From NCBI GenBank assembly GCA_029931535.1, contig JAQPZY010001685.1:7609001-7673000 (forward strand): a stretch of 64,000 bases of DNA, read 5' to 3'. Below the pieces are notes generated by a model. The model had not been told where the DNA came from and searched no databases. It was given only the letters and a program-made list of their open reading frames with translations. The position numbers were made by a program, and so were the translations under genes. This stretch comes from Margaritifera margaritifera (Eukaryota; Mollusca; Bivalvia; Unionida; Margaritiferidae). Positions 11,530 through 64,000 of the stretch are shown piece after piece; within the stretch, counting starts at the first letter, position 1, and each line of letters opens with the position of its first letter.

Positions 11530-12230
11530 TTGTTTGAACATCCCTCAATATAAACCCTTCTCAATTATAACATGGGTAACTGTTTGAACATACCTCAATA
11601 TAAGCCTTCCTGAAATATAACATGGGTAACTGTTTGAACATCCTTCAATATAAGCCTTCCTCAATTATAACATGGGTAACTGTTTGAACATCCTTCAATA
11701 TAAGCCTTCCTCAATTATAACATGGGTAACTGTTTGAACATCCTTCAATATAAGCCTTCCTCAATTATAACATGGGTAACTGTATGAACATTCCTCAATA
11801 TAAGCCTTCCTCAGTTATAACATGGGTAAATGTTTGAACATTCCTCAATATAGCCTTGCTTTCCTCAATTATAACATGGGTAACTGTTTGAACATTCCTC
11901 AATATAAGCCTTCCTTAGTTATAACATGGGTAACTGTTTGAACATTCCTCAATATAAGTATTTCTTAATTATAACATGGGTAACTGTTTGAACATTCCTC
12001 AATATAAGCCTTCCTCAGTTATAACATGGGTAACTGTTTGAACATCCTTCAATATAAGCCTTCCTCAGTTATAACATGGGTAACTGTTTGAACATCTCTC
12101 AATATAAGCCTTCCTCAGTTATAACATGGGTAACTGTTTGAACATCCCTCAATATAAGCCTTCCTCAGTTATAACATGGGTAACTGTTTGAACATCTCTC
12201 AATATAAGCCTTCCTTAGTTATAATGTAAC
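11530..12230 (+). repeat. 50-bp minisatellite, about 13-14 units
   Basis: The unit contains 'ataacatgggtaactgtttg', 'aacatccctcaatata' and 'agccttcctcagtt' and repeats every 50 bp. Variant positions (ccttc/cctc, cagt/caat) cluster in neighbouring copies, consistent with recent local expansion. One unit near 11850 has a short insertion. There is no long open frame through it. Confidence 0.95.
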
Positions 12231-14316: not shown

Positions 14317-15167
14317 CGGTCCTACTAAACACCGCAAAGTCAGACAAAGGCAGACAAAGTCATGCAAAGTCAGACAAAGTCTGTTTATTTTTGTTTTATT
14401 TGTACATATTTGTATACATTATACTATATTAATTTTGGTTTGATATTTAAATTTTAAAAAGCGTGATTTATGTTAGGAACTTATTATATTACATAAGTAT
14501 AAAGAAATATTTAATAGAACAAAGGCAGATAGAGTATGACAAAGTCATATAACACAGATAGCGTATGACAAAGGCAATCTCAATGTGACAAAACCAGATT
14601 TAATAATTTTATATAATAATTATCTTATTGTGAGACACGTAATAATATTATGAAAGTAATATAAAATATATAAGTATTTAATAGAATATAGTATGCCAAC
14701 TTGATGTAATAAACTTAAGATATCGTATGACAAAGACAGATTCATAAATTATGTGTCAATTAAATATTCTATTAACATTCATAATCATAAATTCGTGATG
14801 TACTTTCATCGAAAAAGATAGACCATGACAAGATGTATAGTACAAATACAGAACATCATTTCACATGTTAATGTCCTAATTTGTTTCAGCATAATCATTA
14901 CAGTGTCTTAAGCAGTAATACAAATCTTTTCTGTTGCTATTAATGTTTGCGGTATAATGAGAAGAAGCGATTATGCTACAAACAGTAAGAAATTACTCTG
15001 CCGCTGTCGGCAAAATCAAACGCGGTTCATGGCTATTTTACGTTGTCTCAAGCAGTTATACAAATCTGTTCATGCAGTACTGTTCAAACAGTAATCATTT
15101 AATCAACCTTTAATTATATACCGGCGTCGGCAATCTCAAACGTAGGTACTGTTACTGTTATGTCAGA

Positions 15168-15419
15168 ATGCCTTCTGCCCGTGCTCGTAAGCGTGTTAAA
15201 CTCCATCAGTACCCGTGCGCTGTTTGCAAACAGAATTGTGCCAATGATTCGGTCCATTGTGATTCTTGTGAAAGTTGGGTACATGCATTGTGTGAAGGCA
15301 TCACAGTTAGTGAATTAAATGTTCTTTCTGGAAAGTATAATTGTATGTGCCGAGTTTGCATTAAGAACAATGATGGTGAAGAATATAGCTACATGAATGC
15401 TCTCTTCCAACTGAACGAG
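15168..15419 (+). CDS. PHD-type zinc-finger exon inside the TIR element
   Basis: The open frame begins MPSARARKRVK (basic) and then shows a Cys4-His-Cys3 pattern: CAVC, C at 'NCAN', CDSC, 'WVHALC', then CRVC at about residues 19-65. The spacing is that of a PHD finger, a module that binds histone tails in host proteins. Coding probably stops at a donor site, 'GAACGAG|GTAAAT', at 15419/15420; the frame otherwise reads on to a stop at 15473. The frame lies 0.85 kb inside the left inverted repeat, so it belongs to the transposon rather than the host. The remaining exons are not visible. A minus-strand frame at 15653-15847 is unexplained. Confidence 0.6.
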
Positions 15420-16075
15420 GTAAATGATAATTGTGTAGTTTGTCGTATATCTGCTTTCTGTACATGTATTTGAAGAAAATCATGTTTTCTAGATGAGATT
15501 AAAAGAACAACGGAAAAAGTTCTCAAAAAAACCCCCAAAACAAACATACTTTGAATGAGACTTTAGTTTGTAGAGTTGTATGTATCGTTATTAGAGTATT
15601 TATTTCTCCGTATGGTAATACATGTACTTTGTGAACTCAATAAGAATTGTGATTATTCATATACAATGCTATCTTGTTCATTGTAATGCTGTTCATCCCA
15701 CGACTGCTTCATCTGAGCCAATTCATTTCCCGATAAGTTCTTCTGTCTTAATTTTGGATGCAAAATGTCAAACAAATGTTCAATGACATTTTCCATTTCG
15801 CATTTATTCAATATTTTGAAACTCGTTTCCTTTGTTAAATATGACACTCCAGAAGTCTAATCGTCACGGTTCTCTGTACTTTTAGAAAGCACAATTGTTC
15901 TACTGATAATTTTTTTTTAAAATGACCATAACTAAAACTTATAATTGATTTATTACTTCAGTATTTCCGCAAAATGTGTGTCCCTTTATAGTTATTCTGA
16001 AAAGCAAAAAAAGATTTTCGCTTCTAAAGTCAACATCGAGTTTTTAGAATTACAGCGACGTTATGCAGTTTCGTT

Positions 16076-19263: not shown

Positions 19264-20446
19264 ACTAAGATGGCACCCTCATATGCAAATATCTTTATGG
19301 GCCGATTAGAAAGCTAACTTCTGGCCTCTGTAAACTATAAACCATACTGACGGGTACGTTTAATTGATGATGTGAAAATGAAATGGAAAGATGGGAGGGG
19401 AAATTAGACGAATTCATCATGCAGATCGATACTTTCCATCATTCGATCAAATTATCTGCCGAAATTTCGAACACTGAGCATATATTTTTTGACACAAAAA
19501 CTAAAATTGTCAATAACACACCCCATACATACATTTATTCCAAACCGACTGACAAACATCAATACCTACTTCCATCCAGCTGCCACCCAAGGCACTGTAC
19601 CCAAAATATCCCCTACAGTCAATCACTTAGAATCAGGAGAATTTGCTCTGATGGCTTAAATTTCGATGCAAGGTGCAGAGAGCTAACCCAACATCTGACA
19701 AAGTGGGGCTACAAGAAAGATATAATAGCGGAAGCGATACAAAGAGAAAAGCAATCAAACCGTGCTGGCCTCCAAAAAATACACGGGAAAAGAAAACGCG
19801 GAATGAACACCCTTCATTTTCACGTTCCACCCAGAGAGTAGGTCGCATCATTCACAAACATTGGCCAACTATTGAATCGTGTAAACCGCTTAAATTGATG
19901 TTCCCACACAAACCAATTGTACCATTCCGTATACCTCAAAATTTGAGGGACATGCTAGTCAGGACAAATTAAATAAAAAAAATAAAATAAAAAAAGAGAT
20001 GGGAAATCGAAACCTCGTGGAAACAAAAAATTTAAGACGTGCCAGCACATGAAGGAAACAAATACATTTTCCAGCAGTCACAGGTGAAAAGTTTAATATT
20101 CACAACCATACGATTAGATTGCAGCACAGAAAATGCGATCTACCTCTTCATATGCAAGGTATACAGCACCCAATATGTTGGAGAAACGCAGAAATTAAAT
20201 ATTAGAATGAATCTTCACAGATCAGACTGGCAAACCAATAAATTGGAAATGATCTCAGTGGCGGAACATTTCTCTTCTCCCAGCCATACTTTCAATGATG
20301 TTATCTTGACTGGAATCGCCCATAACTCAAAATGGAGCACAGAAAATAGGAAATCCAAAGAAACATATTGGATTCGCCGGCTGCGAACACTCAAACCCAG
20401 CAGCTTAAACCAAGAAGAATCCAAACTGTCATTTGTCCGTGCATAG
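19264..20446 (+). mobile_element. Penelope-like retroelement fragment (RT + GIY-YIG)
   Basis: The 5'-truncated copy starts within the reverse transcriptase. Motif B 'MAPSYANIFMG' is encoded from 19272. Motif C reads 'RLIDD' at 19357-19371. Frame 19383-19841 then carries the RT thumb ('PYSQSLRIRRICSD', 'LTKWGYKKDII'). The frame at 20039-20446 carries a GIY-YIG endonuclease-like region ('AIYLFICKVYSTQYVGET', then 'RMNLHRSDW', 'EHF', 'ETYWIRRLRTLKP'). Stops and frameshifts separate the pieces. Penelope elements characteristically join an RT to a C-terminal GIY-YIG nuclease, so the order is diagnostic. Confidence 0.88.
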
Positions 20447-23450: not shown

Positions 23451-25837
23451 CACTGGTCTACAGCCAAAATGCTTCCGCAATAAAAGTCGTCAAACGTTTC
23501 TAATTCTGGGTCACTGAGAACGAAAATGATGCTTAAAATTGTTGATTGGTTCTAGTTTTAAAGATATGATACTGGGTCAGTATATACGACCCTTGACTTG
23601 GGAATGGCGGAGGATAAGTGAGTTATAAAGGGAAGGGATCTCAATTTAAACCAGAAATGACTACAATACATCTTTGACTGGATCTATAAATAAATCTATG
23701 ACTGGGTTTGGACAGTACTTGCATTTTAGGCAAAACAATGAATGATGCAATCTGAAGCTGGTATTGCGTCATACATGATATGAATTGCATCATGTTATTC
23801 CTATAAGTCATGGATGATGCAATCATAACTAAGCTTACATCACTCTGCTAAAGAAATTGCCCTATATCAGCTCTACAAATCATACAGTGTCGTTCTCTCT
23901 TATTTGTCAGTGTTTGATTTTGCAAAGGGACAGATTTCTGTTTAGCCAAAGTGAGCAGAGATGCCTCGTACTTGTGTGAACAATGCAGATAACTTCTGCT
24001 ATGTTTGTGGTGTAGTGACTTTTGCATCACAAAAGCGCAGTATAACCACTATGGTTAAGAAAGCCTATCACCTTTATTTTGGCAGCAAAATTGGAGATCA
24101 GGACAAGAGGTGGGCCCCACACATATGCTGCAACACTTGTGCAACAAATCTTCGCCAGTGGTTGAACAGGAAAAGGAAATCAATGCCTTTTGCAGTGCCA
24201 ATGATTTGGAGAGAGCCAACAGATCATATCAGCAATTGTTACTTCTGCATGGTGCCTCCAGTTGGGAAAGGTGTGTCAAAGAAGAAAAAGTGGACTGTGC
24301 ATTATCCAAACATTCCATCAGCTATACGCCCAGTACCCCACGGAGAAGGACTGCCGGTTCCTGATGCACCAGAATCATTCTCACTTGAGTCAGACGAGGA
24401 AGAGGAAGAGGATGAAACTTCTAGTCCTGAACCATCAATGTCACATGACCCATATTTTCTACCATCCTCCTCCTCTGAACCACACCTCATAACACAAGGT
24501 GAACTGAATGACCTATTCAGGGATTTGGAACTACCCAAGAGTAAGGCAGTAAGTGGAGACTGTTCATTGATTCATCGAAGACGAGTCCTAAAGCTGTTTT
24601 GGTGCATAATGGCAGTGTTTTGCCATCAATTCCAGTTGATCATGCAGTCCATATGAAGGAAACCTGTGAAAACATGAAACAACTTTTGAGGTGCGTAAAC
24701 TATGACCAATATCAGTGGCAGCTTTGTGGCGATTTCAAGGTTCTTGCTCTCTTGCTTGGTCTGCAGACTGGATACACAAAGTACTGCTGTTTTCTCTGCG
24801 AATGGGATAGTCGTGCGAGAGATTCCCACTACATCAAGAGAGATTGGCCACTCCGACAGTCACTGGAGCCTGGGATGAAAAGTGTTAAGCATCCACCACT
24901 TGTTGAATCAAGGAAGATTTTTTACCACCCTTGCACATCAAGCTGCGTCTGATGAAGAACTTTGTCAAGGCCATGGACAAAACACAAGCAGCTTTCAAGT
25001 ACCTCCGTGGAAAATTTCCAAGGTTAAGTGAAGCTAAGATAAAGGAAGGTGTCTTTGTTGGTCTTCAGATTCGTGAACTTCTTCGAGATGATGCATTTCA
25101 CCGTGCACTGCGTGGCAAGGAAAAGACGGCACGGAAAGCCTTCCACTTAGTGGCAACAAATTATTTTCGGAAACAACAAGGCAGACAACTACAGGGAGTT
25201 GGTGGAAAACCTCCTCAAAGCACACAAAATCCTTGGTTGCAACATGTCACTAAAGATACATTTTTTGCACTCTCCTCCTAGATTTTTTTCCACCGAACTG
25301 CGGAGCAGTGAGCGACGAGCACGGCAAGCGATTTCACCAGGACATTGCAACAATGGAGAAACGCTATCAGGGCAAATAGAGCCCATCAATGCTTGCAGAC
25401 TATTGCTGGACAGTGACAAGAGATGCTCCATTTAATGAATACAAGAGACAAGCCAAGAAGCGCCGAATAGACACTGAATAAGGACTAAACTATGTACTTA
25501 TATATACATAATAGTTTTTTGACTTTTGTTTCAATATATTTTTTATTTATATAACCCTTTTGCTGTTTTTTTAAAGTGTTACATAAACAGGACAGGTGAA
25601 ATATTATCATGTAAAGCAACCATAAACACATGAAAAGACCTAGGTTTACAATTTGTGATTAAAAGTCTACTATGTACACAATATACATAGACGTAAAATG
25701 TAAAAACTTAAATATCTTGGAAACAGTATCCAATCAGTTGCTTTAATTGTCATATTTGAATTCAGCACATCAAAATCCCTAATAAATAGCACATTTTATC
25801 TCTGAAGCAGACGACTTCTAAAAATTGTAGACCAGTG
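23451..25837 (+). mobile_element. 2.39-kb DNA element with CACTG termini
   Basis: The left end is CACTGGTCTACA at 23451-23462, with the exact inverse at 25826-25837. Both ends are followed inwards by a 'GTCGTC' motif. TAA flanks both sides (23448-23450 and 25838-25840), a possible 3-bp target duplication. CACTG ends with a 2-3 bp duplication are typical of CACTA/EnSpm-like and some Chapaev-like elements, but I see no canonical transposase. The single gene inside is frameshifted. The protein and its untranslated flanks resemble a multicopy sequence I recall from many insects, molluscs and reptiles (memory only). Confidence 0.75.
23961..25480 (+). pseudogene. Broken transposon protein with CxxC zinc finger
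   Basis: The frame opens at ATG 23961 with 'MPRTCVNNADNFCYVCG', then 'CCNTCATNLRQW' and 'NCYFCMVPP', three Cys pairs suggesting zinc binding over residues 5-100. An acidic serine-rich linker follows (about residues 140-170). Near 24546 the reading frame changes, and sequence seems to be missing relative to the family I recall. It resumes at about 24599-24930 ('MKETCENMKQLLR', 'YCCFLCEWDSRARD'), shifts again at about 24925 to the frame 24931-25170 ('LMKNFVKAMDKTQAAFKYL', 'FPRLSEAKIKEGVFVG'), and again at about 25175 ('NMSLKIHFLHS'). The last readable part ends near the TAA at 25480. Function is unknown; it is probably the element's transposase or an accessory protein. Confidence 0.8.
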
Positions 25838-45272: not shown

Positions 45273-45389
45273 TCATCGTGCCATAACAGCCAGGGCACCG
45301 ATCCCTCCTAGAGCTGCAGTGAAAAGAAGTCCCTTCCAGATCTTATCCTCCACTGCACTCTGGTCTGAGAAGTAATCTGCAAACGCATC
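45273..45389 (-). CDS. Mcl1: Mcl-1-like Bcl-2 family protein, exon 2
   Basis: It encodes residues 181-218: the second half of BH2 ('DAFADYF') and a C-terminal hydrophobic segment (about residues 200-217, 'GLLFTAALGGIGALAV') ending in R and TGA. That tail fits the mitochondrial/ER membrane anchor of the family. The acceptor is clear: a T-rich stretch, then 'CTCCAATACAG|GATGCG' with the junction at 45390/45389. The frame joins exon 1 in phase 0. The open frame reading upstream to 45500 is intron. Confidence 0.92.
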   Translation of the reverse strand, partial: DAFADYFSDQSAVEDKIWKGLLFTAALGGIGALAVMAR

Positions 45390-47786
45390 CTGTATTGGAG
45401 AAAGAAAAAAAAATGATGATTCATAAAATGTTAGAATGCGAGTACATGACACTCTATCAACAACCCAGTAATTCAGCATGATTATAAAAAAAACACACAA
45501 ACCCCTTCAAATCTAGATTTATGGTTGACCAGGCAGGTACATGTTATTTATATACAGGCACACCCTGCATACCATATTGATAATCACTTGAAATAAAAAA
45601 TATATCTGCACATAACACAAAAAAGTGTGGATTTTAATATGATTAACCAGGGGGGGGGGGGAGGAGGAGGAGGGGGTGTCTTTTTTTCTCCGACAAACAA
45701 AATAAATCATCTATATTTTAGTGAAGAATAACAAGTTCCAAAATTCTGGCACAATTTTTCTAAATATGCTATTCAATAAAATGCAAGGGTTCAAACATCA
45801 TGGAAGGATTTAAAGCACGATGGACTCAAGTGTGCTGAATGATTCTTATCAAAGCATGATGTCAAAGCGCATATGAGTGTAATTAGGCAATATCAAATCT
45901 GCCATCTCTAAGAAAAATAAAAACCTAAGGTCAATTGCACTTGAGTGTTTTAAGATTATAAATAGGAAATCTCCCAGTTATATTTAGATACAGAAATACT
46001 GCAGAAATACCCAGGGTGAGAACATGAAGTTACAGTATTAATTCTTTTAGATATTTTGGTGCAAAACTTTGGAACTCACTCCCCATTTCAAGGAATAAAT
46101 GCCTCCAAGTCAATTTCACAGATTAACAAGTAGCCAGAATATTCCATCCTGTAGCCGCTGAACATGGCTCTATTAGCTACTGTAGTGTGCTCTTTCTTAA
46201 TTATAGCATGCTTTTTGATTCAAGGAAATTATATTTTCCTGTATGTGTGCTATAATATGCTTTCTGCTTCCAGTAGATTTATATCATCAATTATACACTA
46301 TGTCAATAAGCTTTCTAAGTAAATAAACGATGATACTCCTGCTCCAATTAATTTCAAGTTATGCTTTCTGCATAATGCACATAATTTTAAATATCTGCAT
46401 GTTGTAATCTCATACAACTGAGGTGTTTTATGTAACGAGTGTAACTTATTTCATTCATCCCAGATTATGTACTTGTAGATTAGAGTCTATTAAACACATA
46501 GACTCAATTTAATTTATCTGTTGATCCTTTATTACAAGTCTGCCACTTCCATCTTAGAGCCAATGTCAGTCTCATATTTTCTTGTGCACATATCACGTGA
46601 ATGTTTAACATTTGTAGCAAGGTTGGACAAAAAGGGAAAATATTTATATTTTAATTTGTTACCAGTTATATCTGAACCATAATATTTAGTAAGTATATCA
46701 GATTCTTCCACTTTTAAATCTAAACAAAGCCACAGGCAGCGAGGGAGTAGGCTCCTCCCTAATCATTACACTGGCTAATGAAACTGCCTGACTGACTTTA
46801 TGGTCCAATGAAATGTGCACCGAATGTCAACACAGATTTTTGCACTGGTCAACATGGTCAGCTCACATGGAAATCAACAGGCCCTGCGGAAAATCAACTT
46901 GCCCTTCCAATCCAATAAAAATAATGTTGTAATGGCTCTCTAACTTTCCACAGCAAATAATACTATCATTCTTATAGTGTTTACATCCTGCAACAAAAGT
47001 TCCTTTTTTGTAAATACATTTACTGCATGCTTTGCATGTCATGCCTATTTCACAGTACACCAAACAGCTAAACTCCTGCTCCCATTTTGGCAAATGATCT
47101 CACAATCTTTCTTCTCTCATACCTCCTTTGCTGCTCCCACCTTTCTTCTTGTTTTTTTTTTCTTCCTGCGGTGGCTTATAATTCAATAGGGGTGAAACAA
47201 TACACCTCTGCTGTGTATTGATACGATTCACAATACACAGCCTACAAAGCAATACATTACTGATATACATATCAACTTGATGGTCTTTTCGTCTTTAGAA
47301 GGTCTCTCAGTGTTATGGTGGTGCCGTTTTTTATGTATTGACATATTGGTTGTTTCTAGTATTGCAGATTACATACAGACATAGACTTATCATTTGTTCA
47401 TATGCCATTCTCATCCTCAACAAGATTTTTAAAAAAAACTAAACTTCCAAACAGACTACATGTTAGGTGTCAATGATTTTTATTCTGTCTTTTAGGCCAT
47501 CTCAGGCAGCTCCAATTGATCAGTTGCAGGATTTGTCTTGGTCACTGCGCCCTTTGTTTTGCACTGCATGAATGCTTTAAAACATCTTATTACCAATTTC
47601 ATGTCTTCACTTAAATTTGGAGGGCATTACATTGTTATCTTCAAAACAGAACAAATAGTGCAATTTCCTCATGCAAGGAAAATCTTATCTAGAACAAGTC
47701 AGAATGTAGAAGGAGAGAAGACTAACAACCAAATCCTTCACATTGTATTTCCTGCAGATACATAATTGCCACAGCCACTCATTTCT

Positions 47787-48438
47787 GTCAGTGAAAAAGG
47801 AAATAATTGACAACACCCACTCTCCTTCTACAAATTAACAAGATGACTATTACTCGTGCAGTTTGGAATCTGCCACCCCCCCACTCTGCGCTTGTTTTTT
47901 TTATATCCCATCCGATTCAAGTACTTTACAGATCATTTAATAAATACTTTTGCGCACAAGTTTCTCTGTTGCTTTGTATCTATTTGAATAGAGTTTGGAT
48001 ACCAATACAGCAAACTCTGATGTGTCACGTAGTGAATAAGCTCCAGCTAGTTCAGAAACTTGGTTATTGTTTTACTCTTGACTTGAACAAACAATAACCA
48101 CCAATCAGAATTCAATGCAACTTATTTCACTGCGTGACACACAGGAAGTGTAGCCCTCAAATTCGATCCAAGTAGAAAAGATGAGAAGCAACAGAGAAAC
48201 TTCAAGTAAATGTGATTATTAAATGATCAGTAAAGTACTTAAATTATACACAGGGAACAAATCTGGAATGTCTTCTTTACGTTGATATATGTTATCAGTG
48301 GCTGAGCATGCTGACGGGATAAAATAATCAGCATGGAAATGGGGGGGGGGGGGCAGATTTAAAACCAACAAGTTAGTCACCTTGTGTTTCTTAATTTGTA
48401 AAAGGCAAGTGGGTGCTGTCAATTGTTTTTCTCACATG
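47787..48438. mobile_element. Foldback element, about 650 bp, in the Mcl-1-like intron
   Basis: The left half (47787-48072) is matched in inverse by the right half (48088-48438). Outer words: 'attgacaacaccca' / 'tgggtgctgtcaat'. Middle: 'aagtactttacagatcattt' / 'aaatgatcagtaaagtactt'. Inner: 'tgtcacgtagtgaataag' / 'cttatttcactgcgtgaca'. Centre: GGTTATTGTTT / AAACAATAACC around 48080. Arms differ by indels, so it is old. The small open frames in it are by-products. Confidence 0.8.
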
Positions 48439-48879
48439 AATTCTCAATTTAAAGAATAAAAAGGCAAACGACTAATAATTATTCACGACTGCCGAGGATG
48501 AAAGTAACTTGTATATAGTAAGTATCGTTTTGTATCAATTCCTTACTTCTTGTATAGATATGGAAAAAGTATTGATATATCAATTAATCATTTCACTCCT
48601 TTAATTCAACATACATTTTTCCATGGTTAGTAATTTGTTAATGGCTAGTGATTTAAGGCTGCTACCATTTTGATTCATGAACCAATGCATAAATTGTCAC
48701 ATATTTTATTTGTTTAAAAAAGTTGGTGGCATACATAATCTGGTACACACACTCTTTACACCACCATTTATAATTTACTGTAAGAGACCATAAAACCAAA
48801 GCTGTCACAAGTTTTGCGCTGGACAAAACAGCACCCACGAGCAAGCGGTACCTCCCCCTAAAAAAAATACAGGAAACTC

Positions 48880-48950
48880 AGCAAAATGCCCCCTTTGTGC
48901 TTGGTGCCACGGGCAGTCGCCCATATAGCCCACCCCTTACGACGGTCCTG
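48880..48950. mobile_element. hAT-like element end, partial
   Basis: Reads 'gggcagtcgcccatatag' and ends CCCCTTACGACGGTCCTG. The inverse CAGGACCGTCGTAAGGGG is a typical hAT-type terminus. The opposite end was not found. Confidence 0.45.
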
Positions 48951-50550
48951 CATAGAACCAGTCTATATAAGATGCAATGATATGAACACTTGTATGTTTG
49001 ACAAAACAATGGAACGTACTTGGTATAGAAAAATACTGTCAGATTAAAATTCATGATTTAATAGAATTTCTTCAATAATGACTTTGGAAAATTTAACCAG
49101 TCTCGCAGGCCATCAGTATTAACTGGCCCTCCCCAAAACCCACACGCCAAAGGCTGGCAGACCAGCAGCTAAATCAACCCATTCTTAAAAGTCACCCAAA
49201 AGTCTGCTTGTCAAAGATTGTTTTGATTCATGTCACTGATTTCAAGGTGAGGCCAAATAAAAAAGTATGTGTGGTTCTGGTTACCCGACTGACCCTACAA
49301 TTTTTTTGTTAAAAAATTTGGAAATAAAAGAAGAAAAAAAATGTGGGAACAAAATTAACAATGGGATACAACTACGATCAGAGTTAAATTCAGGATGCGA
49401 GTGACGCTTGTATTCTAGTTTATACTGCATTTAAACCAGTCCAAACCCCCCCCAAAATTTGCACCGACCTACCTACCCTCATTTATTTTTCAATGCACAC
49501 CCAAACAACAAATTTTTTCTTCGGCTGGATTATGGCACAATTGTTAATGACATTACTCGCAACATTTCTCTTACGGGTGCGTTTGGAAATAAACGGTACT
49601 TGTCTGTAATGGATCGCCATATGGATTTTTCTCAGAGCATAATCAATGTACTGGAACATCTAACACCCATGAGCAGTGTTTATCATCTATTGTTTACGTA
49701 GTAATTACAGGAGACCAATACATACTGTGTGGAAAATAATTACATGGATAAAAAGATGTGTTCTCAAATCATACAGGTGTGTAAATAAATAAATCATTAC
49801 AAAACCATTCTCATTTACAAGTTAAGCTTTCATCATTGTTGATGCAGTCAAAAAGGCGAGTCCATTAGTATATCTAGGAAAAAAAAAAAAAAAAAATTGG
49901 ACAAGGTTTCCACAAACAAGGCTAATAAATTTGTTGCAAAGAAAAAAAAAACTAATATGATACTGTAAAATAAACAAGAAATTTCCAGTCTGTATGGATT
50001 CAAACTCAGAAAATTATCTAATGTTGTTCAGATACACACACACACATATATATACTATAAGTTTATCTTTTTTGACAGCTTTAATTATTGGCACAACTCT
50101 TAACTGTCAAACTGTTTATTTTATGAAAGAAAAAATAAAATAAGCTCTTTACTTGTAAAACAAATATAACAATTCTAAAAGCAGCCCTATTTTATTGTAA
50201 CTCATTCTTTTTACTTTCATTGCAATCTTGTCATATTTTGGGGCAAGCTCAAATCTCTTTGGGGGAAGTTAAATTTTCCAGTCGGCTTGCCCTGCAGGGC
50301 ATGCTTTCATAAAACTTCTGCAGCCCTGGTATGCATTTTAATTTCCTGTAGATCTTATGTACAAGTATTTTAATAATGTCGGTATACAATCAGTGCAGTA
50401 CTTGTGTTAATGTTGCGATATTTTACAATAAATAAATTGATTCAACTTGGTTTCAAACAACAAACAGTGGCTGACATGACATGACAAAAAAACCCCCACC
50501 TATAAGCTGTTAAAACCTGTCGCACAGTTAATGTAAAATAAACTGCAGTT

Positions 50551-50551
50551 T

Positions 50552-50583
<32 letters not shown>
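50551..50583. repeat. Poly-G tract, about 33 bases
   Basis: One of several long G or C runs near the apoptosis locus. Length in the source genome is uncertain, as such runs are error-prone to sequence. Confidence 0.85.
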
Positions 50584-50585
<2 letters not shown>

Positions 50586-50646
50586 AGAAACAAAATAAAA
50601 TATTTTTCTTTTACATAAATCACTAGATTTAATGGATTTAACTTAC

Positions 50647-51186
50647 CCATCCACCATTGTCCATAATCCAGTGACCAACTTTATTGCCTACATATTTTCC
50701 TACATAAAGTGCAATCTTTTCTTCAAAGTCAGGCTGACTTTGTCTAAAATGTGCAGCCAACCGAGCAGCAAAGGCATAAACAGCAATAACTCTACCCCAG
50801 TTTATCTGACCATCTTCAAAGATTTCATTAGCAACAGTTGCAAATACATCAAAAGCGTTATGTCCCATCTCTCCGATATTTAATTTATTCACCATTCCCT
50901 TGAAAGCAATATCATGTCGGTCTGAAATTTCCTTCACAGTTTTCCTCATGGTTTTGCAGTATCTGTCAGGACATTTCTTATCCGTCTTTTCATAATTAGA
51001 CACGATATCGTTAGCAATGACTTCGGCTTCTCGCCTCACGATTTCAAGTGGTGACGAAGCTTGGTTCGGTGTTTGTGTAGATTCATCCAAACTAGTATTG
51101 AGCCCTTGATAGCCAGGAAGAAGACCCAGTTGTTTATAAATTTCGGCAAATGTATTTTTACCGTTTCTGGCAGTTTTTACTGACAT
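50647..51186 (-). CDS. Mcl1: Mcl-1-like Bcl-2 family protein, exon 1
   Basis: It encodes residues 1-180 of a predicted 218-residue regulator of mitochondrial apoptosis. A BH3-like helix lies at about 76-95: M80-x3-V84-x2-I87-S88-D89, followed by 'AFKGMVNKLNI', the wording typical of Mcl-1. BH1 lies at about 120-139 with N129-W-G-R132. BH2 begins at W173 and reaches 'GGW' 178-180 at the exon end (TGG|GTAAGT). Retention of NWGR, a GGWD-type BH2 and a tail anchor favours an anti-apoptotic, Mcl-1/Bcl-2-like role over Bax/Bak. Residues 1-50 are short and lack the long PEST region of vertebrate Mcl-1. V84 in place of the usual BH3 leucine is unusual. The first ATG (51186) opens the frame and no coding exon is evident upstream. 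Confidence 0.9.
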
Positions 51187-52300
51187 TGTGTCTATCCCAA
51201 TGGTCCCTGGGCACTGGTCTTTTGAATTTCGGTCATTCAGATTGTCACCCTGGTTTTAAAAAAAAGCCTTTCAGCATAAAATTTTCTCCATGGATTCCTG
51301 CCTATCAGCCAAAACCAAAAGATGGCGACCAGTCGGCTACCTAAAATTTATTCCCGTGATCATGTGATCTTCCCGAACGCTATGTTTAGAAGCCGGATAA
51401 TGCACAAAAATAGAAACCGTAATTCGGCCACTCCTAAGACTGTCTCAAAATATGACGCAACTTCCCTGAAATATTGAAAAGTGGTTTGTTGGGCTCAGTA
51501 TTGAAATGTATGCAGATTTTGATGATGATAGTTAAAGAAATACATGATAACGTAACGAAAGATACGTATAAAAATGAAAAAAAAAATTTAAAAATATGTT
51601 ATTGTCACATACCATATTGTGGCCATTTGACTACACTATCTAGTTAAGAATCGTGAAGTTACAATGTTGATGTATTTTTTTAAAAAGAGCATAATGGCAG
51701 AGGATAAAGTAACTCTTAAAAAAAATAGGAGAACAAATAAAACATTTGTTTTCCTTTTGTACGCTCCTCTTACTTATTGTGCGTGATTATTTGAACTGAT
51801 TATTTACTTTTACTTCGACAGTTTAAAATTTTAATGATTTTTACGAAAACAGTTATATACATTAATTTTGTTACGAACGAAGAGGCTAGTTTGGGCTATT
51901 ACACATTTGATATGTACATATCAGACACAAACCCAACTGAGATATTAGAATTTGAATATCTCGGAAACAATCTCAGTGCATCTTGTGAAAGTTAATCACT
52001 ACCTGGCATTTATCAGAGTTGAACAAAATTCAGACTATCTCTCTGATAATATGTGTTTTATCACGAAATATTTAAAGGCTGAGATGTTACGGCAATGTTG
52101 GCTGATGAAAATTCCATCAATTACTCGGCATTTCTATTTCCTAGTATAATAAAGAACATGTTTGTTTGTATTTTTATTTCTCTTTCTTCTCTGGTCCTTT
52201 CTTTTAAAATGGTTAAATTTTAATGTCTGACACACGTGCTTCAAATAAACTTTTTTGATACGACCCCAGCTGTTTTCCACGAACAGGAACACCTTTCGTT
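51187..52300. promoter_or_regulatory. Bidirectional intergenic region, Mcl-1-like / BH3 candidate
   Basis: It separates the Mcl-1-like ATG from the first candidate exon of the plus-strand BH3 locus. A YY1-like 'AAGATGGCGACC' lies at 51319-51330. No TATA box is obvious near the starts. The order implies head-to-head transcription from a shared region of about 1.1 kb (inference). Confidence 0.4.
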
Positions 52301-52309
52301 CTTAATTTA

Positions 52310-52535
52310 GAATGGCGTTATGACATCACAGTCATACTGGCTGTGGATTGGAGAAAAACTGTATCTCTTTTTTGCAAACTATTTTTAGCTCAGGTAAGTA
52401 ACTCGAGGTAAAAATACATGTTTTCCGCCATTTTCATTTGCACCTGTATTTTCCTTTTGTTATAATACCCGATAAAGCACAAATACTAGATGGTAATTTA
52501 GACGAAACTGCGAGAGTGTCGTCCAACAGCTGAAG
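52310..52535 (+). other. Candidate 5' non-coding exon(s) of the BH3 locus
   Basis: Two good donor sites: 'AGCTCAG|GTAAGT' at 52392/52393 and 'CTGAAG|GTAAGC' at 52535/52536. 'ATGACATCA' (CRE/AP-1-like) at about 52320 and 'TTTTCCGCCATTTT' at about 52421 are promoter-type motifs. Either donor could splice to the acceptor at 53719. Confidence 0.4.
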
Positions 52536-52802
52536 GTAAGCCACTTTTTCACGTTATCTATTGAGACCTTCATTGTTTTGATACCTGTTTGTGAAAGAGG
52601 GCTGACGATATATTGTTGGAAACTTCAACTTGTTGGTGATGACCCCATACTTCATCTTGTAATAGTTTTAGAGTTCATTTATTACTTATTTTGTTGCTCA
52701 TTAGATAGGTCGTGATTTATGAGCCGTTTACAATGGGCGACCGTGTTACCTATAATCTGTCAAAAGAATGCTAATACGGGAACTTTCGTTTACGATGGGA
52801 CC

Positions 52803-52807
<5 letters not shown>

Positions 52808-52834
<27 letters not shown>

Positions 52835-52919
52835 TCCTTACTGCATAATTTAGGTTACATCTCAGCATTTGAAAACAGCAAGTAAGAATAACACGTGAGC
52901 GGGGGGGGGGGGGGGGGGG
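52808..52919. repeat. Poly-C and poly-G tracts, potential G-quadruplex pair
   Basis: A C run at about 52804-52833 and a G run at 52901-52919, complementary and 70 bp apart, in the proposed first intron of the BH3 locus. Confidence 0.8.
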
Positions 52920-52964
52920 CTGTAAATAACCGGAACGTTTCCTAGTGTAAGTTTTCTTTACAGT

Positions 52965-53060
52965 TTGATGGTTAAAATTATGCCTTGGAAACGCTTAAAA
53001 TGCGGGGGCTTCGCTCTCTGGACCCCCACCTGGAGTTCTGTCCCACAGACCCATCGCCTA
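52965..53060 (+). repeat. GGGGGCTTCGCCCCC dispersed repeat, inverted copy
   Basis: 'aaaattatgccttggaaacg', 'cttaaaatgcgggggcttcg' and 'ctggacccccacc' match the inverse of 36993-37100. Confidence 0.65.
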
Positions 53061-53063
53061 CTT

Positions 53064-53066
<3 letters not shown>

Positions 53067-53148
<82 letters not shown>
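53067..53148. repeat. (GA)n microsatellite
   Basis: About 41 GA units. Long repetitive open frames on both strands are artefacts of it. Confidence 0.95.
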
Positions 53149-53683
53149 ACTAATGTATCTAGTGTGTGGTCGAAGCCACGAAGGGTGACGAATCCTTCTA
53201 GCCCTAAAATCATTGTAAAACAATTGTCTTTCACTTTGTCACGTTGATTATTTTTTAATAGAGCGTCAAATTTGAATAACATTACACACTTGTAAATATA
53301 AGATAAATCTGCAAACACCTCTCGCAAATCATCAAGGATCAAACATGTCATCTATGCTAGCGAAGGTTCAGATATATTAACCTCATAGGCTAACGCAGTC
53401 AATAAGCTAAAACATCAGAACCTTGGCTAGCGAAAATGCAAACATGTCTTTTGATTGTTGTAAGCTTCATTCTTTCTTCCTTTCTGGTTTGCATAAGCGT
53501 CCGCATGATATCTGAGCAACAATATATAGAGAGTAAGTTTTTAGGGAAATATTTAATACTATATCCTGAAGTTCTCCTTTGCAGTTCATTTCTTTTCTTT
53601 CTCTATTTGTTCTTGTTTCGATTTCTTGTTTTGCTGTCGAAAGAATGAAGATAAAAACGTCGATGACGATGATGATAACAACG

Positions 53684-53684
53684 A

Positions 53685-53715
<31 letters not shown>

Positions 53716-53719
53716 GCAG
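53684..53719 (+). other. (ATT)n tract forming a splice acceptor
   Basis: Ten ATT units lead straight into 'TTATTGCAG|GGAGTG', so a microsatellite serves as the would-be pyrimidine-rich tract. The frame is also open through it, giving a run of isoleucines if unspliced. Confidence 0.5.
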
Positions 53720-53727
53720 GGAGTGAT

Positions 53728-54114
53728 ATGGACTTGAACTCCGAAATGAATGATGTGAAAAAGGATGTGTTTTCTGATATAGTGTGTCGTCAGTTCGCCG
53801 AAGTTCATCAGATTCGTAGAAATTCTGCCCCACCTTCCATGTTCTTGAACAGTGGCGAAGAAAGGAGAAACACAAATGAATCTCAAGAAAATAACCGCCA
53901 GACCTTAGTTTTATGTGGGAAGATCTTACGAACAATGGGTGATGAGCAAACTTCTAAGGCATTTGGCAAGCATTTGAGAAAAATGGGGGATGCAATGTAT
54001 AGTAAATATACAGTGGGTCAGATTTTAGCACAAGTGGAACATGAGCGCCGAGATATGAACCAAAATATGGATATTCCGACAACACTTGTGGATAGAAGAC
54101 CGAGCTCCAGGTAG
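53728..54114 (+). CDS. Candidate BH3-only protein (BAD/BIM-like)
   Basis: A frame of 128 residues from ATG 53728 (G at -3 and +4), eight bases inside an exon that starts at 53720. The BH3 motif is textbook: F79-x3-L83-x2-M86-G87-D88-x-M90. A second BH3-like word, 'ILRTMGDE', precedes it at 66-73 but lacks the fourth hydrophobic position. 'RRNSAPP' at 30-36 matches the RxxSxP mode-1 14-3-3/basophilic kinase site and echoes the SAPP of vertebrate BAD. There is no BH1 or BH2 and no obvious membrane anchor. The stop at 54112 overlaps a weak donor ('CCAG|GTAGAA'), so a further exon is possible. An upstream ATG at 53626 would add 34 Asp/Ile-rich residues from the microsatellite. Function as an antagonist of the neighbouring Mcl-1-like protein is inferred. 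Confidence 0.65.
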   Translation: MDLNSEMNDVKKDVFSDIVCRQFAEVHQIRRNSAPPSMFLNSGEERRNTNESQENNRQTLVLCGKILRTMGDEQTSKAFGKHLRKMGDAMYSKYTVGQILAQVEHERRDMNQNMDIPTTLVDRRPSSR

Positions 54115-62527: not shown

Positions 62528-62842
62528 TTCTGTTTTCATTAATTTCACAAATCAACCGTGGCAAATAGTGGTGTCACCAAATTATTATTATAAACATATG
62601 TTTATACCTTCCTTTTTTTTGCAAGTAGAAGAGAAGCACAAATTCCTAAATATTACGAATCCACGGAACTTCGAGCTGCAGTGCTAACAAAATGATCTTT
62701 CTCATATTGTTAAATTTTGCAAATCAATCGTGACAAATAGTAGTATCACCTAAATTTATTGTTATTATCAACATACTTTGATACCTTGCTTTTGCAAAAT
62801 AGAAGAATAGCGCAAAAACGCCTAAAGCTGCATGAATCTACC
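62528..62842 (+). repeat. Direct repeat, about 140 bp x 2, diverged
   Basis: 62528-62664 and 62697-62842 share 'aaatcaaccgtggcaaatag', 'gtcacc-aaatt-attatta' and 'gataccttgc-ttttgcaa'. The second copy ends where the GC-rich integrase block begins. Confidence 0.65.
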
Positions 62843-63700
62843 CACCCCATCGGGGGACTTGTTGAGGTAGTATATGACGGTCTGGCAAGAGGTTTCCCAT
62901 CGGTCGAGTATAACGTACGTATCCAGCGACCATACTGGATCTGTGGTGCGGCAGTTCCAATCCTCCTGTTCGCCAGTCGTTCAAATGTACCGCACAGGGG
63001 CCAGAGCATTGAGCGGCTGCCCGGTCGGCTTTCCCTAGCGGGTCGCATGTGCCGCAGGCAAGGCGCAGATGGCATCGACTGGTCTTGCGCCAGTAATGTG
63101 GGGCACCTCTTCATTCAGGGCAGACACCACGACCGGCAGTCGTGGAACCCATTCGACGCTACGCGTCGCCACCCCTTTTAGAAAGCAACAGCTCCTAGGC
63201 GTACTGGTGCCCAAACAGCCGCTCGGCCATGGTTCCATTAAACCACTCCACGATGCCTTGGGCCTGGTGGACGCCGGCATTGCGGCGCCACACGCAGAAG
63301 CCACGCATAGCCAATAGTTGCGACACGGCGCCCATAAAATCCCGCCTGGGATCGACCTTCACCAGCGTAGTCCACTGGCTCGGTCTCCGCTTGTAGATCC
63401 GTTCCAGCGCGACGGCAGGTTCGACAGCCTCCTTGCTGGACAAGGGCTCTACCGCCTTGCAGCGGTTGGAGACGTCCACCACGGCCAGCGCGTACTTTTA
63501 CATGCGCCGTCCAACCTTCTCGTGCGGCAGGAACAGGACGTCGGACTAGTGCACCTCGTTGGGGGTCGAGACGCTAAAACTCGGGTCGACGACTTTGCGT
63601 GGCGCCGGCAGGTAAATCTGCTACACGGACTGTCTTTTTAGCCAATCCCTGGCAGTGTCTGTCGGGACTCTGGCGGCCGCTGCCAGCTTTTAGCCGTCGC
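62843..63700 (-). pseudogene. Integrase (rve, DDE) of Polinton/adintovirus type, degenerate
   Basis: Read on the minus strand. An N-terminal 'ARDWLKRQ' helix-turn-helix-like segment (about 63640-63670) precedes the catalytic core. The first acidic residue is in 'SDVLFL' (about 63544). The second is the D of 'LVKVDP' (63351-63353). The glutamate is in 'GIVEWFN' (63246-63248), 34 residues after the second D in this copy, close to the D-D-35-E spacing of the family. A C-terminal region continues through 63035-63195 ('RLPVVVSALNEEV') to about 62843. Stops occur at about 63620 and 63550 and between the first two core strands at about 63500; frameshifts lie near 63195 and 63035. Such integrases insert linear virus-like DNA. 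Composition is GC-rich against AT-rich flanks, a sign of separate origin. Confidence 0.75.
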
Positions 63701-64000
63701 CTTCACTTCCAGTAACCCCTGGGTCTGTAGTAGACGGATGCAAGACGGGCCTCAATCGCTCCAGCCTGTTGGGCCCGCCTTCAGGTGGCTGCGACCCACC
63801 GACCGCGAACTTGGCTTTTATTACGCCCGTAACGAGCATGCGGCCAAGCCGCTCGCCGACGGCGGGTCACCTGACGGCCTTTAGGTCGTTGATCAGGTCC
63901 ACGTCGGCCTTGTGCCGGTCCCTCCTGTTGTTGCTGCGCAAGTACAACAGGTCGTGCCGGTTACACGTGGCGCCCAAGCAACTGATGGGCGACTCGCCCG
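63701..64000 (-). pseudogene. Phospholipase A2-like segment upstream of the integrase, partial
   Basis: The minus strand reads a 'C-x2-HDLLY' word at about 63960 followed by 'RDRHKADVDLIND' (about 63890-63930) and a helical 'VGERLGRMLV...VIKAKFAVG' (about 63815-63865). His-Asp-x-x-Tyr followed by a His/Lys-Ala-Asp helix resembles the phospholipase A2-like domain seen in parvovirus-like and Polinton-like virion proteins. A TGA near 63870 and a frameshift near 63690 separate it from the integrase. It continues past the window edge. Whether it was fused to the integrase or a neighbouring gene cannot be told. Confidence 0.5.

Follow-up and report, generated by a model that had tools for sequence, protein, structure and literature searches.

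According to three papers, bivalves, or molluscs at large, have no BH3-only protein that could be found. In an oyster study, the passages on this point describe no BH3-only homologue in the oyster or its phylum, and present oyster Cg-Bcl-2 and Cg-Bcl-xl as pro-survival proteins whose interaction with pro-apoptotic partners runs via the BH3 domain (PMC5550854). A paper of 2022 treats BH3-only proteins as potentially present in Lophotrochozoa, and the legend of its Figure 5 names potential BH3-only sequences from Crassostrea, Mizuhopecten, Octopus, Lottia, Capitella and Lingula (PMC8998228). BH3-only proteins have also been reported in schistosomes. The locus described here lies in a stretch of 64,000 nucleotides (the window) from the bivalve Margaritifera margaritifera (contig JAQPZY010001685.1, positions 7,609,001 to 7,673,000, forward strand), in which a short plus-strand gene, a candidate for a BH3-only protein, stands head to head with a minus-strand gene of the Bcl-2 family. 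The reading favoured here, at a rough probability of 0.77, is that of a conserved bivalve BH3-only gene whose product would use the second of two BH3-like repeats to bind the groove of pro-survival Bcl-2 proteins, the likeliest partner being the protein of the neighbouring gene.

The features of the plus-strand gene are given below; counts over 21 refer to the family of the window protein and its 20 relatives.

53728..54114, plus strand: coding sequence of the BH3-only candidate, 128 amino acids, placed by relatives and motif; the start may instead be at 53746
53914..53949, plus strand: first BH3-like repeat, CGKILRTMGDEQ, under stricter conservation than the second, its fourth hydrophobic position being Gln in 17 of 21 members
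53962..53997, plus strand: second repeat, the canonical BH3 motif, FGKHLRKMGDAM, recognised by its BH3 positions and by profile matches in the PDB
53815..53832, plus strand: RRNSAP, a site resembling those of basophilic kinases and 14-3-3 proteins, in 3 of 21 members, with an RRxSLP form in three more

The open frame runs from 53720 to 54114, just where an earlier reading of the window from its letters (the sequence-only reading) had placed it, and its start codon is either 53728 or 53746. The ATG at 53728 is matched in the alignment by the initial Met of the Potamilus protein and by a Thr of the Sinanodonta protein. An acceptor-like CAG ends at 53718, and an upstream 5' exon is therefore possible. 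A first search found five relatives of the plus-strand protein, two of them named, both hypothetical proteins of freshwater mussels: Sinanodonta woodiana (76% identical) and Potamilus streckersoni (72% identical). Over the whole length these two proteins share 80% identity with one another and either shares 72-73% with the window protein, as would be expected of a freshwater mussel outside that pair. A profile search with the window protein and the five relatives brought the list to 20 proteins, adding 15. On average these are 60% identical to the window protein over residues 63-97 and 17% elsewhere, and nine family members are on contigs of about 0.8-1.2 kilobases (kb), which could be transcripts. 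Judged from these relatives, the plus-strand frame is a real gene that is conserved in bivalves; conservation, which the sequence-only reading had named as a check, is found in the 20 relatives, those of S. woodiana and P. streckersoni among them. The absence of BH1 and BH2 from the frame, noted at the same time, agrees with the absence of PF00452 (the Bcl-2 domain) from the Pfam families listed for the 21 members.

The pattern F-x3-L-x2-M-G-D-x-M, from which the idea of a BH3-only gene had come, is indeed present at 53962-53997, and among window frames of at least 60 amino acids it is the sole match to a looser BH3 pattern. In 200 first-order Markov sequences matched to the window in length and composition, the loose pattern occurred 0.08 times per sequence and the exact pattern did not occur. 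Just upstream lies a further BH3-like repeat, a feature that had gone unremarked. The two 12-residue copies are 16 residues apart and have 5-8 identities between them within each of the 21 members (shuffle p 0.0001-0.0019 per member, the members being related and not independent). Single exceptions aside, the family consensus is CGxILRxMGDE....(K/R)..GxxLRxMGDxI....Y. Conservation in the second repeat comprises Leu in 21 members, Gly in 20, Asp in 20, Met or Ile at P3 in 21, and Ile, Met or Leu at P4 in 21; P1 is more varied, with Cys in 10, Tyr in 7, Phe in 3 and Ser in 1. The first repeat is kept more strictly than the canonical BH3, both Gly, the Ile, the Arg, the Asp and the Glu being present in all 21 members, and its fourth hydrophobic place, where it does not hold Gln, is taken by Val or Ile (four members).

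Comparison with known structures points in the same direction. A core profile made from 19 of the 21 members was searched against 177,635 distinct PDB sequences, with a limit on the expectation value (E) of 10. It gave 54 matches, 49 to BH3 peptides or Bcl-2-family chains and 5 to unrelated chains. The 49 come from seven genes, i.e. Bak, PUMA, Mule/HUWE1, Bim, Noxa, Bad and Bcl-2-like 2, the last of these matching at the first repeat. The best matches are Bak and PUMA BH3 peptides, and the PUMA peptide is aligned over 22-23 residues; the PUMA and Noxa chains of the PDB are BH3 peptides only, so these matches cover the BH3 alone. A profile of the second repeat and linker gave 42 matches, of which 35 carry the names BH3, Bak, Bim, Bad, Noxa, PUMA or Mule, one is named only dF4 and six are unrelated. 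One control, the reversed second-repeat profile, gave two PDB matches, neither of them to a BH3. As a set of evidence, not by any single match, the BH3-only reading appears well supported: the PDB matches are mostly BH3 chains and the BH3 positions are kept in nearly all relatives, in line with what the sequence-only reading had proposed.

The neighbouring gene and the stretch between the two genes comprise the following features.

50647..51186, minus strand: exon 1 of the Bcl-2 gene, residues 1-180, with a BH3-like helix, BH1 and the start of BH2 (by eye); the donor follows directly after GGW
45273..45389, minus strand: exon 2 of the Bcl-2 gene, residues 181-218 and stop, with the remainder of BH2 and a C-terminal hydrophobic tail (by eye)
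51187..53727, no strand: stretch between the two start codons, with raised CpG over most of its length and with poly-C, poly-G and GA runs

Exon 1 ends in NGGW followed by GTAAGT, and a CAG acceptor is directly 5' of exon 2. The phase-0 join gives 218 amino acids with BH2 intact (GGWDAFADYF) and with the hydrophobic tail GLLFTAALGGIGALAVMAR, assigned by eye, at the C-terminus; the product matches Pfam Bcl-2 at E=5.5e-27. The closest of the 80 listed relatives, P0023, is 218 amino acids long, 96% identical to the window protein, and listed on a contig of 1,275 base pairs (bp). Since this contig could not accommodate the 5.3-kb intron of the window gene, the two-exon splice is supported. The minus-strand gene is a real two-exon gene of the Bcl-2 family, and here the sequence-only reading is borne out by the splice, the BH2, the Pfam match and P0023.

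Placement within the family is less specific than the label 'Mcl-1-like' first given to the gene. Public names among its relatives include bcl-2-like 1, bcl-2-like 2, MCL1-like and NR13-like, and the named relatives span bivalves, gastropods and cephalopods, oysters (Saccostrea, C. virginica) included. In a 34-row tree of the window protein with 33 of the 80 relatives, the window protein pairs with P0023 and adjoins a group of Mya, Mactra, Mercenaria and Ruditapes. The sequence search of the PDB scored a Bcl-2/Bcl-2-like 1 chain at 67.8 bits, NRZ at 61.8 and Mcl-1 at 59.0, and the profile search scored 'Bcl-2-like 4' at 83.7, Bcl-2/Bcl-xL at up to 76.2 and Mcl-1 at 71.6. Names among the best 60 of 195 profile matches are Bcl-2, Bcl-xL, Mcl-1, A1, BCL2-like 10 and 'Bcl-2-like 4', and none of these 60 is named Bak, Bax or Bok. 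Folds were compared with Foldseek using the AlphaFold model of P0023, not of the window protein (mean predicted local distance difference test score, pLDDT, of 76), which gave 377 matches with E<=0.001, the best (E 5.5e-07) to zebrafish NRZ; NRZ ranks first, Mcl-1 next, BAK sixth and BAX fifteenth. Thus the family assignment stands and Mcl-1 is second by fold, but Bcl-2, Bcl-xL and 'Bcl-2-like 4' chains all outscore Mcl-1 by sequence. Judged from names and from the lack of any Bak, Bax or Bok name in the best 60 of 195 matches, the gene is probably pro-survival.

The start codons of the two head-to-head genes are separated by 2,541 bp, matching the spacing of about 2.5 kb given at first. Across most of the gap the CpG observed/expected ratio lies at 0.74-1.12, falling to 0.54-0.59 around a GA repeat (53067-53147); it is 0.24-0.37 at 50001-51000 (the end of the intron and some of exon 1), and the window as a whole has 0.62. 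The two genes may share a promoter, for which the CpG content alone is suggestive; a scan for p53 sites was at chance level. Nine BH3 family members are on contigs of more than 200 kb, and the list of Bcl-2 relatives gives the longest contig for each of its 80 clusters. One of the nine was matched to the listed contig of a Bcl-2 relative: P0019, a member of the BH3 family, and P0049, one of the Bcl-2 relatives, each have 1,798,677 bp as their longest listed contig, and given this seven-digit agreement the two are very likely on one shared contig. The P0049 frame continues with unrelated residues right after the same GGW, and reads as an unspliced gene since it diverges there as if into an intron. 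P0049 groups with the heterodonts Mya, Mactra, Mercenaria and Ruditapes in the 34-row tree. With alike contigs for P0019 and P0049, and with P0049 among heterodonts, the linkage of the BH3-only and Bcl-2 genes is therefore probably older than the split of freshwater mussels from heterodont clams. These lineages parted several hundred million years ago.

The AlphaFold model of the BH3-only candidate has helices at residues 11-35, 49-76 and 80-115; pLDDT averaged by block is 93-96 over residues 61-90, and the two repeats are modelled as the latter two helices, with a three-residue break between them. Under the favoured reading, the second repeat (F/Y/C-G-K/R-x-L-R-x-M-G-D-E-I/M) would insert into the hydrophobic groove of pro-survival Bcl-2 proteins, the likeliest first target being the protein of the head-to-head gene. 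Occupancy of the groove would free Bax/Bak-type proteins and lead to mitochondrial cell death. The first repeat is read as an ancient tandem duplicate of this motif, and the two helices may fold onto each other in a hairpin, the first masking or pre-shaping the BH3. A larger proposal is held to be rather unlikely, namely that these proteins form a class of tandem-BH3 hairpins of the molluscs' own, the first helix masking the second, and that the gene has stood head to head with the guardian it antagonises since before the freshwater mussel/heterodont split, one regulatory stretch controlling both.

Several observations weigh against the BH3-only reading. No PDB match is significant singly (best E 0.021 with the core profile and 0.010 with the second repeat), and no BH3 chain is retrieved from the PDB by the window protein alone or by its 28-residue peptide alone. 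Many of the BH3 matches are variants of Bak or Bim, and the profiles also match aspartate decarboxylase and fucosyltransferase by chance. The first repeat profile alone gave three PDB matches, all to a myosin and none to a BH3, and the second repeat is broken in P0022, where it stops after LR-G-M. Pfam BAD is found in 2 of 21 members (best E 0.048), none convincing, and unrelated Pfam families score alike or better: Peptidase_U57 (E 0.0041, one member) and DUF7129 (0.041, three members). The AlphaFold model is weak overall, with a mean pLDDT of 68.9 and a predicted template-modelling score (pTM) of 0.39, and of 131 modelled residues 54 have a pLDDT of 50-70 and 23 are under 50. No C-terminal membrane anchor is seen by eye. 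The fold of the neighbouring Bcl-2 protein, taken through P0023, also matches BAK at rank 6, and its pro-survival role is inferred. The shared contig rests on equal size, which is silent on distance and orientation. Finally, a confident helix pair is unusual for BH3-only proteins, which are described as disordered (PMC8998228).

Some of these points would also suit a bivalve helical protein with some other job, its second helix BH3-like by convergence and its Bcl-2 neighbour incidental. The stricter conservation of a first repeat that is not a BH3 by profile, the two confidently predicted helices, and the chance matches to enzymes, which show how loose BH3 patterns are, all fit such a protein. 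However, convergence leaves unexplained the PDB matches that are mainly BH3-bearing and drawn from seven genes, none of which the single reversed control returned, hydrophobic positions and a Gly-Asp kept in 20 or 21 of 21 members (P1 aside), and equal-size contigs for P0019 and P0049 in a bivalve grouping with heterodonts. This account is considered unlikely.

Descent from vertebrate-type genes, with the candidate a divergent orthologue of BAD or PUMA kept since the bilaterian ancestor and not lineage-specific, is less probable still. The marginal Pfam BAD matches and the alignment of the PUMA BH3 peptide over 22-23 residues speak for it, as do RRNSAP (three members) and RRxSLP (three others), which resemble BAD serine sites. 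BAD is controlled through its phosphorylated serine sites. Together with RPSS, found at or near the C-terminus in 12 of 21 members, the RRNSAP and RRxSLP sites hint weakly at control of the BH3-only candidate by phosphorylation. On the other hand, no likeness to BAD or PUMA reaches significance: Pfam Bcl-2_BAD does not match the window candidate at E up to 10, Pfam PUMA or Noxa matches none of the 21 members, the serine site is confined to 6 of 21, and the PDB chains, as short peptides, give no view of likeness beyond the BH3. Neither BAD nor PUMA is known to carry a tandem repeat. A chance open frame or pseudogene adjoining the Bcl-2 gene, for which a single frame with simple repeats on both sides and an incompletely conserved start codon could be cited, is very improbable given that 20 listed relatives keep the frame, of which two have been annotated in mussel genomes and nine lie on possible transcript contigs.

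Elsewhere in the window, G+C content rises from about 31% to 56-63% near 62.8 kb and remains high through the window end. Three frames in this region (62800-64000) match no Pfam family and 62400-64000 matches no plasmid record; the region may be of foreign origin or belong to a mobile element. Two adjacent frames at 19371-20446, of which the second encodes a GIY-YIG nuclease domain (E 2.3e-06), resemble the remnant of a Penelope-type retroelement. A PHD-finger frame at 15114-15473 (E 1.5e-07) is perhaps a piece of a mobile element. Three overlapping long frames at 23955-25281, with a Cys-rich start, look like a broken gene of a repeat family, and the two that were searched have no Pfam match. 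A 50-bp tandem repeat of 13.8 copies with 92% matches occupies 11531-12224.

A conserved candidate family in bivalves would reopen the question of BH3-only proteins in molluscs, with a putative partner encoded next door. Were the hairpin real, this would be a BH3-only protein whose trigger is perhaps folded away and not disordered. The candidate may also bear on bivalve leukaemia and on haemocyte death under stress. Bnip3 belongs to a different family from the present candidate. Bobtail squid Bnip3 resembles it as a mollusc protein termed BH3-only (PMC9389742). The likeness to the oyster Cg-Bcl-2 and Cg-Bcl-xl (PMC5550854) is that of molluscan Bcl-2 proteins, and the window gene has oyster relatives. 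Some of the Figure 5 sequences of PMC8998228 may belong to the present family, as compared by species names alone; that paper's passages on lophotrochozoan BH3-only proteins mention neither a tandem repeat nor linkage to a Bcl-2 gene, and in its Results synteny is a means of validating Bcl-2 homologues. Like Bim, PUMA, Noxa, Bad, nematode EGL-1 and the schistosome BH3-only proteins, the candidate is short and has a BH3 without BH1 or BH2. It differs from them in its tandem repeats 16 residues apart, its two confident predicted helices and its adjoining Bcl-2 gene, and no significant homology to them was found outside the motif. Mouse Noxa has two BH3 motifs in one BH3-only protein, far apart, whereas here the tandem is a strict 16 residues and in 17 of 21 members the fourth hydrophobic residue is missing from the first copy. 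On human chromosome 22, BID adjoins BCL2L13, likewise a BH3-bearing gene beside a Bcl-2-family gene, but the genes and their arrangement differ. By its motif, then, the candidate would be a BH3-only protein of a known kind, and what appears new is the tandem BH3 together with a probably conserved Bcl-2 neighbour.

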